NCBI RefSeq assembly: GCF_037478005.1
Contig: NZ_CP144164.1
Location: 4,092,001-4,156,000, forward strand
Direction: 5' to 3'
Source: Alteromonas sp. M12
GTDB lineage: Bacteria; Pseudomonadota; Gammaproteobacteria; Enterobacterales; Alteromonadaceae
Length of the DNA stretch: 64,000 nucleotides
A program made the translations under genes and the position numbers. Below, piece by piece: positions 48,132 through 51,495 of the stretch (its first letter is position 1; every line of letters begins with the position of its first letter). The notes below the pieces were generated by a model, which worked only from the letters and a program-made list of their open reading frames with translations, ran no database searches and was not told the DNA's origin.

Positions 48132-48368
48132 CGCCTATTACTAATAAAAGTCGAGTTTAGAAGGTTTTTTTATAAGTACAACAATTAAGAGAAATAATAG
48201 CGATAAAAAACTGTACCAAGGGACAGGTGTATTTTAGTTACCATTTCACTAACCTTTTGATATTGCATTGATGTAGGAAAGTATTAACAACCACATTAGC
48301 GCAATAAAGAGTTCGTAGGTGATGTTTAGCCATACGACGAATTTTAATTAATCAAAAGGAATTCGCAA
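48132..48368. other. Divergent intergenic region before the peptide genes
   Basis: About 237 AT-rich bp between the S10 promoter and the first double-glycine peptide. A TTGATA at about 48257 is a possible -35 for the peptide operon, but no well-spaced -10 was convincing. Confidence 0.35.
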
Positions 48369-48536
48369 ATGCGAGAATTGAATGTAATGCAATTAGAAGA
48401 AGTGAATGGTGGTGTAGCCCCTTTAGTTGTGGCTTTTGGCGCCGGCATGTCAGCGGTAGGCTATATTAACAGCCTACCGGGGCTCATGGCATTTGGCAGA
48501 GGGCTTGGTTTCGGTTGGTATGATGCTACTCATTAA
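48369..48536 (+). CDS. Double-glycine-leader peptide 1 (putative bacteriocin precursor)
   Basis: A 55-residue frame starts at ATG 48369 behind AAAAGGA and ends at TAA 48534-48536. The leader MRELNVMQLEEVNGG has the Leu/Met, Glu-Val and Gly-Gly spacing of class II bacteriocin leaders cut by C39 peptidase-transporters. The 40-residue mature part begins VAPLVVAFGAG, is Gly-rich and hydrophobic, and has GxxxG motifs (G43-G47, G45-G49) that pair helices in two-peptide bacteriocins. It lies 15 bp before peptide 2. No known peptide was recognised by name. Confidence 0.82.
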   Translation: MRELNVMQLEEVNGGVAPLVVAFGAGMSAVGYINSLPGLMAFGRGLGFGWYDATH

Positions 48537-48551
48537 TTAAAAGGAGCTTTT

Positions 48552-48707
48552 ATGATCGAATTAAATAAAATTGAATTGGTAGAAGTTTCAGGAGGAATGC
48601 CCGACAACGAAGTCACAGGTTACGCTATCGGCTACGGTGTTGGGTATGTGTTCGGAGGAAAAGCTGGTTACCAACTTGGGATCTCCATATATAACTTATT
48701 CCACTGA
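48552..48707 (+). CDS. Double-glycine-leader peptide 2 (putative bacteriocin precursor)
   Basis: A 51-residue frame starts at ATG 48552 (AAGGAG at 48541-48546) and ends at TGA 48705-48707. Its leader MIELNKIELVEVSGG matches peptide 1 almost residue for residue in type. The 36-residue mature part has a chain of overlapping GxxxG motifs (G23, G27, G31, G35, G39) in GYAIGYGVGYVFGGKAG, then an aromatic tail ending NLFH. The pair strongly suggests a two-component class IIb-like antimicrobial. Confidence 0.83.
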   Translation: MIELNKIELVEVSGGMPDNEVTGYAIGYGVGYVFGGKAGYQLGISIYNLFH

Positions 48708-48723
48708 TTTAGCTCAATGATAG

Positions 48724-48752
48724 AAGGGGATATGCCTCCCCTTTTATTTTTT
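48724..48752 (+). terminator. Intra-operon terminator between peptides and small membrane genes
   Basis: AAGGGGA (48724-48730) pairs with TCCCCTT (48737-48743), followed by TTATTTTTT. It lies 16 bp after peptide 2. It may let most transcripts stop after the peptides, giving less of the downstream proteins. Confidence 0.8.
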
Positions 48753-48780: not shown

Positions 48781-48993
48781 ATGGACCGTAAATTTATAAT
48801 ATTCGCCAATGCTATTTTATTTTTTATGATAGCTACTAATCTCTGGAGTGCGACTTATAGTTGGATTGTGAATGATATTGATATGTCAACTAATCCCAAT
48901 TTACAAACCGCTTTGCTCTATATCATCTGCGGTTTTTTGTTCAATGAGTACACAACAGAAAAATCCTCAAAAACAGATAGCAATGAAGGCTAA
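48781..48993 (+). CDS. Small two-helix membrane protein 1 (putative immunity protein)
   Basis: The 70-residue protein has two membrane helices (about 5-28 and 42-54) and an acidic/polar tail (TEKSSKTDSNEG). AAGGA (48770-48774) precedes ATG 48781. It shares length, order and the GFLFN motif with the next protein, so the two are paralogues. Small helical membrane proteins beside bacteriocin genes are commonly immunity proteins; that role is inferred. Confidence 0.7.
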   Translation: MDRKFIIFANAILFFMIATNLWSATYSWIVNDIDMSTNPNLQTALLYIICGFLFNEYTTEKSSKTDSNEG

Positions 48994-48997
48994 TAAT

Positions 48998-49210
48998 ATG
49001 CCACCTAAATTAATCACCTTTATAAATTGGATATTTTATATAGCGATTGGATTCGCCTTCATACAGGCAATCGGTGACTGGTATGGACAAGGAACTGATA
49101 TACTCGCAAATCCTATTATGCATGGCGCAATGCTGTTAAGCATTATGGGCTTTTTATTCAACCAAAATGTGAAACCAAGCGAGTCCGATGAGAAGCAATC
49201 TAAATCTTAG
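48998..49210 (+). CDS. Small two-helix membrane protein 2 (putative immunity protein, paralogue)
   Basis: The start at 48998 is preferred: AAGG (48986-48989) sits 8 bp upstream, and the protein then has 70 residues, the same as its neighbour, beginning 4 bp after that gene's stop. Longer in-frame starts (48983, 48872) overlap the neighbour and lack such support. Both proteins share NP before the second helix, the block GFLFN, and a Ser/Lys/Glu-rich tail. The pair may protect against the two peptides. Confidence 0.7.
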   Translation: MPPKLITFINWIFYIAIGFAFIQAIGDWYGQGTDILANPIMHGAMLLSIMGFLFNQNVKPSESDEKQSKS

Positions 49211-49272: not shown

Positions 49273-51495
49273 ATGGCAACAGAACTTGTTATTGAAGAGA
49301 CTCTTCAAAAAATAGACAGATTGTTAGAAGCACATCCTTCATTGATGGATGCTTATCAGCAATTGGAACCGATTATTCTGAATTTGTTTGAAGCTCAGCG
49401 TATGAGTATTTTTCAACGCAGGCGTCAACATCAAGACTTGGTTGCCCGTTTTAAAACGGGTAAAGAGACACTTCAAATTAAAGTTCCTATCAGTCCCCAG
49501 TCCATAGCTGGGTATGTTGCACTGAGTCAAAAACCATTATTGATTAGTGATCCTTATAATGCGCAAGAGCTCGCGGAAATACATCCTCGCCTAAAGTTTG
49601 CCGACAAATTTGATAAAAACAGTTCCTTTAAAACTGAAAATATCATTTGTGTGCCGATTTTGAACGCCGGCGTGTTGATGGGCGTAATGCAGATTATTAA
49701 TAAAAAAGTAGGTTCCTTTGGTGATGCCGACCTGCGCTTAGCGAATTCGTTGTCAGAAATATTAGGCAATAAATTTCGTTATGAGTTAGGTGGCACCAGT
49801 AATCCGTTTGATTATCTTGTTCATCGCAAATTGATGTCTGAAAAAGATCTCAAACAATTTACTGAATCCAGTAAAGATATCCGCCAGTTAATCCAACGCA
49901 TGGTATCAGAAGCCCGTATCCCTGAAGATGAATTGGGTAATGCATTATCAGTTCACTATCAAGTTCCTTATATTAGTTATCTTCCTGAGAAATATCACGT
50001 ATTACAAAGTGGCAATAAATTAAACCTGTCTTATTTAAAACGAAACTACGTTGTGGTGTTAGCAGACGCCTCTGAAAACCCGATAGTTTTAATGGCAGAA
50101 CCTAACAATGCTGCACTTTTGATGGAAATTGAAAGCGCATTAGGGATAGACAGTTATGAAATCTCCGTAGGCTTGCCCAATCAAGTTTTACAATATTTAG
50201 GGGCAGGCGGTGGTGGTGGTACGCCAGGCGAGATGGATGAAATACTGGACGAAATTGGTACCAGTAGTGAAGAATTAGATGATACCAGTGAGGAGATGTC
50301 GGATGATGCTCCTGCAGTGGTACGTTTGGTTAGTCGTGTTCTGCACGACGCAAAACGACTAAATGCGTCAGATATTCATGTGGATCCAGAAAAGAACGGT
50401 CCAACTCGGGTACGAATGCGTATCGACGGTGTTTGTCGAGATATTACACAAGTTCCAGCGTCTCACCATAGTGCGGTTATTGCCCGTATAAAAATCATGT
50501 CAAACTTGAACATCGCAGAAAAGCGTGTCCCTCAAGATGGCAAGTTGGCATTTAAAATGTCTGGCCAATTGGTTGAAGTTCGGGTCGCGACAATACCCAC
50601 AGTAGCCGGCGAAGGCGTGGTCATGAGGATATTGGCCTCGGGTGGCGCCTTGCCCATTGAAAAAATGAACATCTCACCAAAAAATATGAGCATGTTGCGG
50701 GTAATGATCAAAAAGCCCCATGGAATATTGCTAGTTGTAGGTCCAACTGGTTCAGGTAAAACTACCACTTTGCATGCAATATTGGGATATTTAAACACAC
50801 CAGATAAGAAAATTTGGACTGCCGAAGATCCGGTGGAAATAACCCAACCTGGTTTACAACAAGTTCAGGTCAGTCCCAAAATAGGTTTTACCTTTGCTAA
50901 TGCATTGCGGGCTTTCTTGCGGGCCGATCCGGATATCATCCTGATTGGTGAAATGCGGGATAAAGAAACCGCTCATGCCGGTATTGAAGCATCCTTAACC
51001 GGTCACTTGGTGCTTTCGACTCTGCACACAAATTCAGCGCCAGAAACAATAACCCGATTATTAGATTTAGGATTAGATCCGGTTAACTTTTCTGATGCCT
51101 GTGTTGGTATTATGGCGCAACGTTTGATTCGTACATTATGCTCTAACTGCAAAGAAGAATATGAAGCTTCCGAAACAGACATGGCATTTATCCGCCGTCA
51201 ATACGGTGAAGAATATCTTCAAGAACTGGATCTTCAAGAGCCATTGAGGTTGCACCGAGGAAAAGGTTGTGATGATTGCGGTGACACTGGTTATAAAGGA
51301 AGAACCGGTGTACATGAACTTCTCACCATGACTCCAGATCTTCGCTCGCTTGTCTACAAAGAAGCATCGGTAACAGAAATGAAAGCCCAGGCAATGCGAG
51401 ACGGTATGCGTACTCTTACCCAAGACGGTATTTTGAAAGTCTTAAAGGGTGACACTGATATCGCGCAAATTCAGATCATCAGTGGGGCTGATTAA
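49273..51495 (+). CDS. GAF-domain GspE/PilB-type secretion ATPase
   Basis: The 740-residue protein has an N-terminal GAF-like domain (about 20-165, with ENIICVPILNAGVLMGVMQIINKK), a T2SSE N-terminal region (about 195-300), an acidic linker and an AAA-type ATPase (about 345-735). Walker A is G490-PTGSGKT, and the Walker B block DPDIILIGEMRD, the His box STLHTN and a four-cysteine zinc site (CSNCKEEY, CDDCGDTGYKGRTG) are present. Such ATPases power type II secretion or type IV pili. The GAF fusion suggests ligand gating. No pilus or secretion genes are adjacent. The ribosome site before ATG 49273 is weak. Confidence 0.9.
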   Translation: MATELVIEETLQKIDRLLEAHPSLMDAYQQLEPIILNLFEAQRMSIFQRRRQHQDLVARFKTGKETLQIKVPISPQSIAGYVALSQKPLLISDPYNAQELAEIHPRLKFADKFDKNSSFKTENIICVPILNAGVLMGVMQIINKKVGSFGDADLRLANSLSEILGNKFRYELGGTSNPFDYLVHRKLMSEKDLKQFTESSKDIRQLIQRMVSEARIPEDELGNALSVHYQVPYISYLPEKYHVLQSGNKLNLSYLKRNYVVVLADASENPIVLMAEPNNAALLMEIESALGIDSYEISVGLPNQVLQYLGAGGGGGTPGEMDEILDEIGTSSEELDDTSEEMSDDAPAVVRLVSRVLHDAKRLNASDIHVDPEKNGPTRVRMRIDGVCRDITQVPASHHSAVIARIKIMSNLNIAEKRVPQDGKLAFKMSGQLVEVRVATIPTVAGEGVVMRILASGGALPIEKMNISPKNMSMLRVMIKKPHGILLVVGPTGSGKTTTLHAILGYLNTPDKKIWTAEDPVEITQPGLQQVQVSPKIGFTFANALRAFLRADPDIILIGEMRDKETAHAGIEASLTGHLVLSTLHTNSAPETITRLLDLGLDPVNFSDACVGIMAQRLIRTLCSNCKEEYEASETDMAFIRRQYGEEYLQELDLQEPLRLHRGKGCDDCGDTGYKGRTGVHELLTMTPDLRSLVYKEASVTEMKAQAMRDGMRTLTQDGILKVLKGDTDIAQIQIISGAD

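Follow-up and report, generated by a model that had tools for sequence, protein, structure and literature searches.

A putative class-IIb-like two-peptide bacteriocin cassette in Alteromonas sp. M12 and its candidate link to a distant exporter cluster

Two very small genes lie side by side in a 64,000-nucleotide stretch of the Alteromonas sp. M12 chromosome (the window), and each encodes a peptide whose leader ends in a double glycine. Do they specify the two halves of a bacteriocin, and which exporter, regulator and immunity proteins would then serve them? We favor, with moderate confidence, the reading that the locus is a class-IIb-like two-peptide bacteriocin cassette with its own immunity proteins, which shares both an exporter and an operator with a cluster located far away on the same chromosome.

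The peptide genes and their relatives

Peptide 1 is encoded by pepA (48369–48536, plus strand) and peptide 2 by pepB (48552–48707, plus strand), with a 15-bp spacer between them and an AAAGGA-type ribosome-binding site ahead of each. The 55-residue peptide 1 consists of a leader ending in EEVNGG (48369–48413) followed by a mature part of 40 residues, and the 51-residue peptide 2 of a leader ending in VEVSGG (48552–48596) followed by a mature part of 36 residues. Here the original prediction was exact: coordinates, leader ends and mature lengths are as it gave them. Judging by sequence conservation, both frames are real genes, as the changes between genomes fall mostly on the third codon position. 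At codon positions 1/2/3, peptide 1 differs by 4/2/25 nucleotides from its counterpart in genome G121 and by 6/4/22 from that in G183, and peptide 2 by 7/1/31 and 5/6/25, respectively.

The mature part of peptide 2 carries glycines at positions 8, 12, 16, 20, 24 and 28, an i+4 run that had been noticed originally but counted as five glycines instead of six. Shuffling the mature peptide 200,000 times equalled this six-glycine register in 37 cases. The GxxxG motifs of peptide 1 had been thought striking as well, but its mature part contains two of them and 77,227 of 200,000 shuffles do as well, no more than its composition would lead one to expect. Class IIb bacteriocin peptides are mostly cationic. 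Neither mature peptide shows this character, as the net charges (K/R minus D/E) of peptides 1 and 2 are 0 and −1.

Neither peptide had originally been recognized by name, but peptide 1 is not unnamed. It passes TIGR03949, the curated NCBI model for class IIb bacteriocins of the lactobin A/cerein 7B family, with 27.8 bits against a cut-off of 21.5, and three of the four peptide 1 relatives found are already named ‘class IIb bacteriocin, lactobin A/cerein 7B family’ by NCBI, the fourth being nameless. The match covers residues 3–30, that is, the leader and the first 15 residues of the core. Peptide 2 shares the double-glycine leader of that family, but it has no match to TIGR03949 up to an E-value of 1 and none above cut-off to the family models; one of its relatives carries the NCBI name ‘bacteriocin.’ The same model also passes a flagellar protein encoded at C1:3131906–3132025 of the same genome (24.4 bits), which we take to be FliL-like and which is likely a false positive. 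Since TIGR03949 is short and lets this protein through, it is weak evidence when taken alone, and we rejected it as proof by itself; the weight is carried by conservation. A second TIGR03949 peptide in the genome was likewise rejected, the FliL-like protein being the sole other match over the cut-off.

Homologues of the two peptides show complementary likeness to lactococcin G, far below the cut-off of 37 bits in both cases: a peptide 1 homologue matches the beta family (NF038034; E 0.0026, 17.9 bits) and a peptide 2 homologue the alpha family (NF038035; E 0.00099, 19.2 bits). Another peptide 1 homologue, that of G099, weakly matches both models, the alpha one through its leader only (E 0.066). 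The peptides of the window match neither family, and they differ from lactococcin G in not being cationic. A search for a relative of solved structure gave nothing convincing, the sole bacteriocin listed being PlnK with an E-value of 0.58.

The locus is located on the single 5,012,782-base contig (C1) of the M12 genome (G000), with the pair at C1:4140369. On one side it is flanked by a minus-strand gene, presumably rpsJ, and on the other by a gspE/pilB-like gene (49273–51495) of the GAF-T2SSE type. The product of the latter is an ATPase with an N-terminal GAF domain followed by MshEN and T2SSE domains. No Rfam element was matched at gathering score between 47500 and 49400.

Nine genomes make up the genus set, and rpsJ was found in eight of them, the ninth (G196) being 59% complete. 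The pair is found beside rpsJ in five of these eight (G000, G164, G121, G183 and G058), and the same gspE/pilB-like gene follows it in all five. In G058, the peptides have strongly diverged and a single membrane protein stands in place of two. In G093 and G009, rpsJ and the gspE/pilB-like gene are present with no pair in between, and G144 has a different neighbor there; a whole-genome profile search for peptide 2 found nothing in these three.

Beyond the genus, 395 genomes of the family were searched with a profile of each peptide at E ≤ 1e-9. The original prediction had turned to relatives for orthologues with a conserved double-glycine leader, and pairs are indeed found both in the genus and in other genera of the family; the nearest protein matches of both peptides are from Aliiglaciecola (Alteromonadaceae), a genus for which a literature search found no paper mentioning a bacteriocin. 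Every peptide 2 match adjoins a peptide 1 match (13 of 13), with 11 of these pairs being profile inputs or differing from one in their first residues alone (as the peptides of G066 do from those of G099), and those of G669 and G636 being new. Both G636 frames (L152) hold a stop inside the profile-matched region, so this pair may be decayed. Conversely, 15 of the 17 peptide 1 matches have a peptide-2-like neighbor, a weak one in G019 and G641, and those of G577 and G570 have none. A weaker peptide 1 match on contig 14 of G033 (E 1.6e-9) likewise has no partner, nor a clear ATG start. Pairing is therefore not obligatory for peptide 1: in the loci seen, peptide 2 accompanies peptide 1, and peptide 1 sometimes stands alone. 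The order of the genes is 1-2 in genera g1, g33, g21 and g24, and 2-1 in G614, G658, G187 (g24) and one further locus of G033. On plasmids, neither the cassette nor peptide 2 was detected at the limits used.

Hydrophobic proteins downstream of the pair

The peptide genes are followed by two genes for 70-residue hydrophobic proteins, imm1 (48781–48993, plus strand) and imm2 (48998–49210, plus strand). They are paralogues with 33% identity, and imm2, whose product has two hydrophobic segments, has orthologues in G164, G183, G121 and G058. Both are probably membrane-bound immunity proteins. Between them and the peptide genes lies a predicted hairpin resembling an intrinsic terminator (48719–48748, plus strand); G121, G183 and G058 each have a predicted GC-rich hairpin in the corresponding position.

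A small hydrophobic protein or a CPBP protein follows every pair whose downstream region was read, hydropathy having been computed for 11 and then 7 more downstream proteins. The pairs of genus g21 are followed by a CPBP/Abi protein of 289–310 residues (PF02517, 62–70 bits, three of three scanned), a family proposed to confer self-immunity to the bacteriocin of a marine relative, Aliivibrio wodanis, according to the available part of that report (PMC4462113). A hydrophobic protein of 66–70 residues is found after the pair in G614, G658, G187 and on contig 21 of G033. Aligned with hhalign, a profile of the proteins from the first three matches those of the window with an E-value of 8.2e-5 and a probability of 60.8, which is suggestive of remote homology to the membrane proteins of the genus. 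In G075, G669, G019, G641 and on contig 16 of G033, the next small open reading frame is also hydrophobic (maximum 19-residue hydropathy of 1.7 to 2.5).

Could such proteins protect by imitating the peptides? For imm1 and imm2 we rejected this idea, as their similarity to the peptides is not significant. The third open reading frame of the G669 locus (L147 3075–3230, reverse strand) encodes a leaderless protein with a hydrophobic segment. A 22-residue match in its C-terminal half all but copies the same half of the neighboring peptide 1 (score equalled in 0 of 2,000 shuffles), and by this resemblance the protein could be a decoy immunity protein. No clear similarity between membrane protein and peptide was seen in G075, G033, G019 or G577.

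A distant exporter and a shared palindrome

The original prediction looked to the full genome for a C39-peptidase ABC exporter with an accessory protein, and both are present. The genome contains one full exporter of this kind, a protein of 719 residues with its C39 domain encoded at C1:676775–677158 and an HlyD gene alongside; the second C39 match is a 334-residue open reading frame lacking the ABC part. Compared with the motifs given in the accessible text of PMC4462113, the H motif of the peptidase matches and the C motif is off by one residue (IR for LR). A TolC-type protein is also encoded in the genome (362 bits). The exporter is separated from the pair by about 1.55 Mb if the contig is circular and by 3.46 Mb along the contig otherwise.

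The neighbors of the exporter are genes for a 73-residue GerE/LuxR-type HTH protein, a 61-residue precursor and an ATP-grasp enzyme that falls below the cut-offs for the MvdC/MvdD and GRASP_SAV_5884 maturases but resembles them (precursor and enzyme, L003 5507–6703; about 673.5–674.7 kb of C1). The end of the precursor holds the motif TTMAIGEEGG, which G164, G121, G183 and G093 share unaltered and G144 with one change; its TTxxxxEE core is, we presume, that of the plesiocin group. On these sequence features, the exporter locus looks like a graspetide-like cluster. All eight genus genomes that are at least 90% complete have the full exporter, whether the pair is present or not, and in all eight loci a GerE-type HTH gene (73–75 residues) directly follows it. 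Against our reading, the exporter has a substrate of its own and is kept in three genus genomes that lack the pair. Both leaders of the window have the spacing EL-x7-V-x-[GA]-G in common with the leader of the precursor, which is consistent with a single exporter. Though not adjacent to it, peptides 1 and 2 probably use this exporter.

Alignment of five genus genomes reveals a block upstream of peptide 1 (48203–48264, plus strand) that is kept while its surroundings diverge. Within it is a 20-bp palindrome, AACTGTACCAAGGGACAGGT (48209–48228), which we regard as a candidate operator and which G058 retains with two changes. A scan for CTGT-N8-ACAG located a perfect palindrome built in the same way in the exporter cluster, 89 bp before the precursor and, in G000, directly after the HTH gene. 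The 5-Mb genome contains the more specific form AACTGTAC-N4-G-N-ACAG just twice, once ahead of peptide 1 and once ahead of the exporter cluster's precursor.

Defined once both sites were already known, the pattern AACTGTACNNNNGNACAG is found at exactly these two places in each of G000, G164, G183 and G121. G058 has it before peptide 1 only, with none in the exporter cluster, and G144 and G196 have none. The single site in G093 precedes another double-glycine-leader peptide, and the single site in G009 precedes a YebG gene (PF07130). In total, the nine genus genomes contain 11 sites, 10 of which stand before a double-glycine-leader or precursor gene; a reversed control pattern gave 0 in the nine. 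The G093 peptide (L165 1659–1853) has 65 residues, a weak match to Microcin V below the cut-off (E 0.0054) and a small hydrophobic open reading frame after it.

A wider set of 161 loci, gathered for other purposes (675,650 bases, identical loci counted once), contains 12 distinct CTGTAC-N4-G-N-ACAG sites, where 20 mononucleotide shuffles average 0.3 matches. All except one, in L026, lie upstream of a double-glycine-leader, peptide-1-like or precursor gene, and these 11 include three loci in G033 and one in G106, both of genus g33. Because the set was assembled around such genes and includes several orthologues, these counts indicate an association and not an unbiased rate. Against this, at the related loci outside the genus, CTGT-N8-ACAG is present within 350 bp upstream in 2 of 13, both in G033, and is absent from all three in g21, all seven in g24 and from G075. 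The genus and g33 are the only places where the box was seen.

The presence of one box at both the pair and the exporter cluster suggests that the pair is probably part of a regulon with dispersed members and draws on that exporter, an arrangement that rests on the co-occurrence of a short DNA motif. What would read the box? The lux box of Vibrio fischeri resembles the palindrome in its CTGTAC-N4-G core and flanks, which fits the LuxR-type protein encoded next to the exporter. The spacing CTGT-N8-ACAG is, however, also that of LexA, and the only site in G009 lies before yebG, a gene known as SOS-induced, making a LexA box the rival. The bacteriocin would then be the same, with production following DNA damage as in the SOS-induced colicins and not the LuxR-type protein. 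We consider this unlikely, if a serious contender, because the sites before double-glycine-leader peptides keep CTGTAC-N4-G and its flanks as in the lux box, a LexA regulon would presumably show more than the two places of G000, and a GerE-type HTH gene follows the exporter in eight of eight clusters and directly precedes the box in G000.

A class-IIb-like reading and its alternatives

The class IIb two-peptide reading offered originally stands as the best account of the locus, carried by the pairs, the leaders, the glycine zipper of peptide 2, the membrane proteins and the exporter. Judged on these sequence features, the genes are real and probably encode a functional variant of the class IIb kind. 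Production would be set by the palindromic operator common to the pair and the exporter cluster, probably read by the 73-residue LuxR-type HTH protein. Once this regulator (or the SOS response) acts on the box, both peptides would be made with their double-glycine leaders, and the distant C39 exporter, together with HlyD and the TolC-type channel, would cut after NGG and SGG and export both. Outside the cell, we infer, the two glycine-rich helices pair through their glycine motifs and make the inner membrane of closely related bacteria permeable. The 70-residue membrane proteins would protect the producer, and the hairpin ahead of imm1 and imm2 would make them less abundant than the peptides.

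This arrangement might extend further. The core locus (C39 exporter, HlyD, the 73-residue HTH-only LuxR-type protein, graspetide precursor and ATP-grasp ligase) carries the box in four genus genomes. Tentatively, and with rather less confidence than in the cassette itself, we propose that in the genus and at least in g33, cassettes without an exporter are scattered on the chromosome, each marked by A[AC]CTGTAC-N4-G-N-ACAG, and that a single exporter and a single switch handle a modified RiPP as well as unmodified lactococcin-G-like pairs. The proposal is confined to the genus and g33 since 11 of the 13 related loci outside the genus do not have the box. Dispersed bacteriocin regulons exist in streptococci. 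If the proposal is true, this would be their Gram-negative counterpart, and such cassettes of marine Gammaproteobacteria would escape searches of exporter neighborhoods because they travel without an exporter and use a resident one with its regulator. The operator would then be a search handle for unannotated bacteriocins and a cheap finder of cassettes in the genera that have it. The two gene orders and the exchanged membrane-protein partners could also provide a natural set for studying peptide-immunity recognition in Gram-negatives.

A two-component bacteriocin outside Gram-positives was originally thought to be novel in itself, but one is already known from Caulobacter crescentus. According to the part of the 2017 report available (PMC5380434), Cdz is a Gram-negative two-protein glycine-zipper bacteriocin in which both CdzC and CdzD are required and killing needs contact; surface aggregates are another trait of this kind. 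As is proposed for the present locus, it relies on a type I system for secretion and on a small immunity protein in the membrane (CdzI). Cdz-like proteins were predicted widely, mostly as single proteins, with a filter that asks for 60–151 residues and for a type I system no farther than 10 kb away (PMC5380434, same portion). Both peptides have the G[G/A/S] leader end given there for Cdz-like proteins, but at 55 and 51 residues they are shorter than the filter allows, the sole full C39 exporter is about 1.5 Mb away instead of within about 10 kb, and the zipper here holds K, Q, F and Y, whereas those of CdzC and CdzD contain only small hydrophobic residues, as described in that text (PMC5380434).

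Class II microcins involve one peptide and not two, and the mature peptides here are shorter. They are otherwise alike in being Gram-negative and in having a double-glycine leader and a C39 ABC exporter with a membrane fusion protein, but here the exporter lies outside the cluster (PMC9746304). The plasmid locus of Aliivibrio wodanis, as far as the source text describes it, is similar in its marine gammaproteobacterial host, double-glycine leader, C39 exporter and HlyD, and its proposed Abi/CPBP immunity is as in the g21 pairs; it differs in having its own exporter and one described bacteriocin gene (PMC4462113).

Two other explanations concern what the peptides do. They may be independent one-peptide bacteriocins that happen to stand side by side, each with its own immunity protein. 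Two paralogous membrane proteins after two peptides would suit this, as would a lone peptide 1: in G577 and on contig 14 of G033 it has a small hydrophobic protein next to it, and in G570 it stands by itself. However, G058, G614, G658, G187 and contig 21 of G033 have two peptides and one such protein, peptide 2 was not matched at E ≤ 1e-9 without peptide 1, and the pair stays together despite its swapped gene order, so we judge independence improbable. Less probable still is that the peptides are secreted against or for the producer itself, in stationary-phase autolysis, a surface or biofilm function, or signaling. There are precedents, as far as the available portions of the sources go: the gonococcal Nap peptides, another Gram-negative set, have double-glycine leaders and act in self-lysis without killing competitors (PMC11798529), and double-glycine-leader proteins serve biofilm development in Synechococcus (PMC4997328). 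A LuxR-type regulator would also be plausible as a density switch. Yet the adjacent putative immunity proteins, the patchy presence in the genus and the strong divergence in G058 fit interstrain warfare, and no receptor kinase is found beside the cassette.

Contig 21 of G033 (L154) carries an independent pair in reversed order together with its small hydrophobic protein, directly before rpsJ, so that the chromosomal neighbor is the same as in the window and the orientation is the other one. Further double-glycine-leader peptide genes adjoin translation genes in G100 (L021) and G093 (L028), which from their open reading frame sequences we take to be secE/nusG/rplK and rpmI/rplT, respectively.
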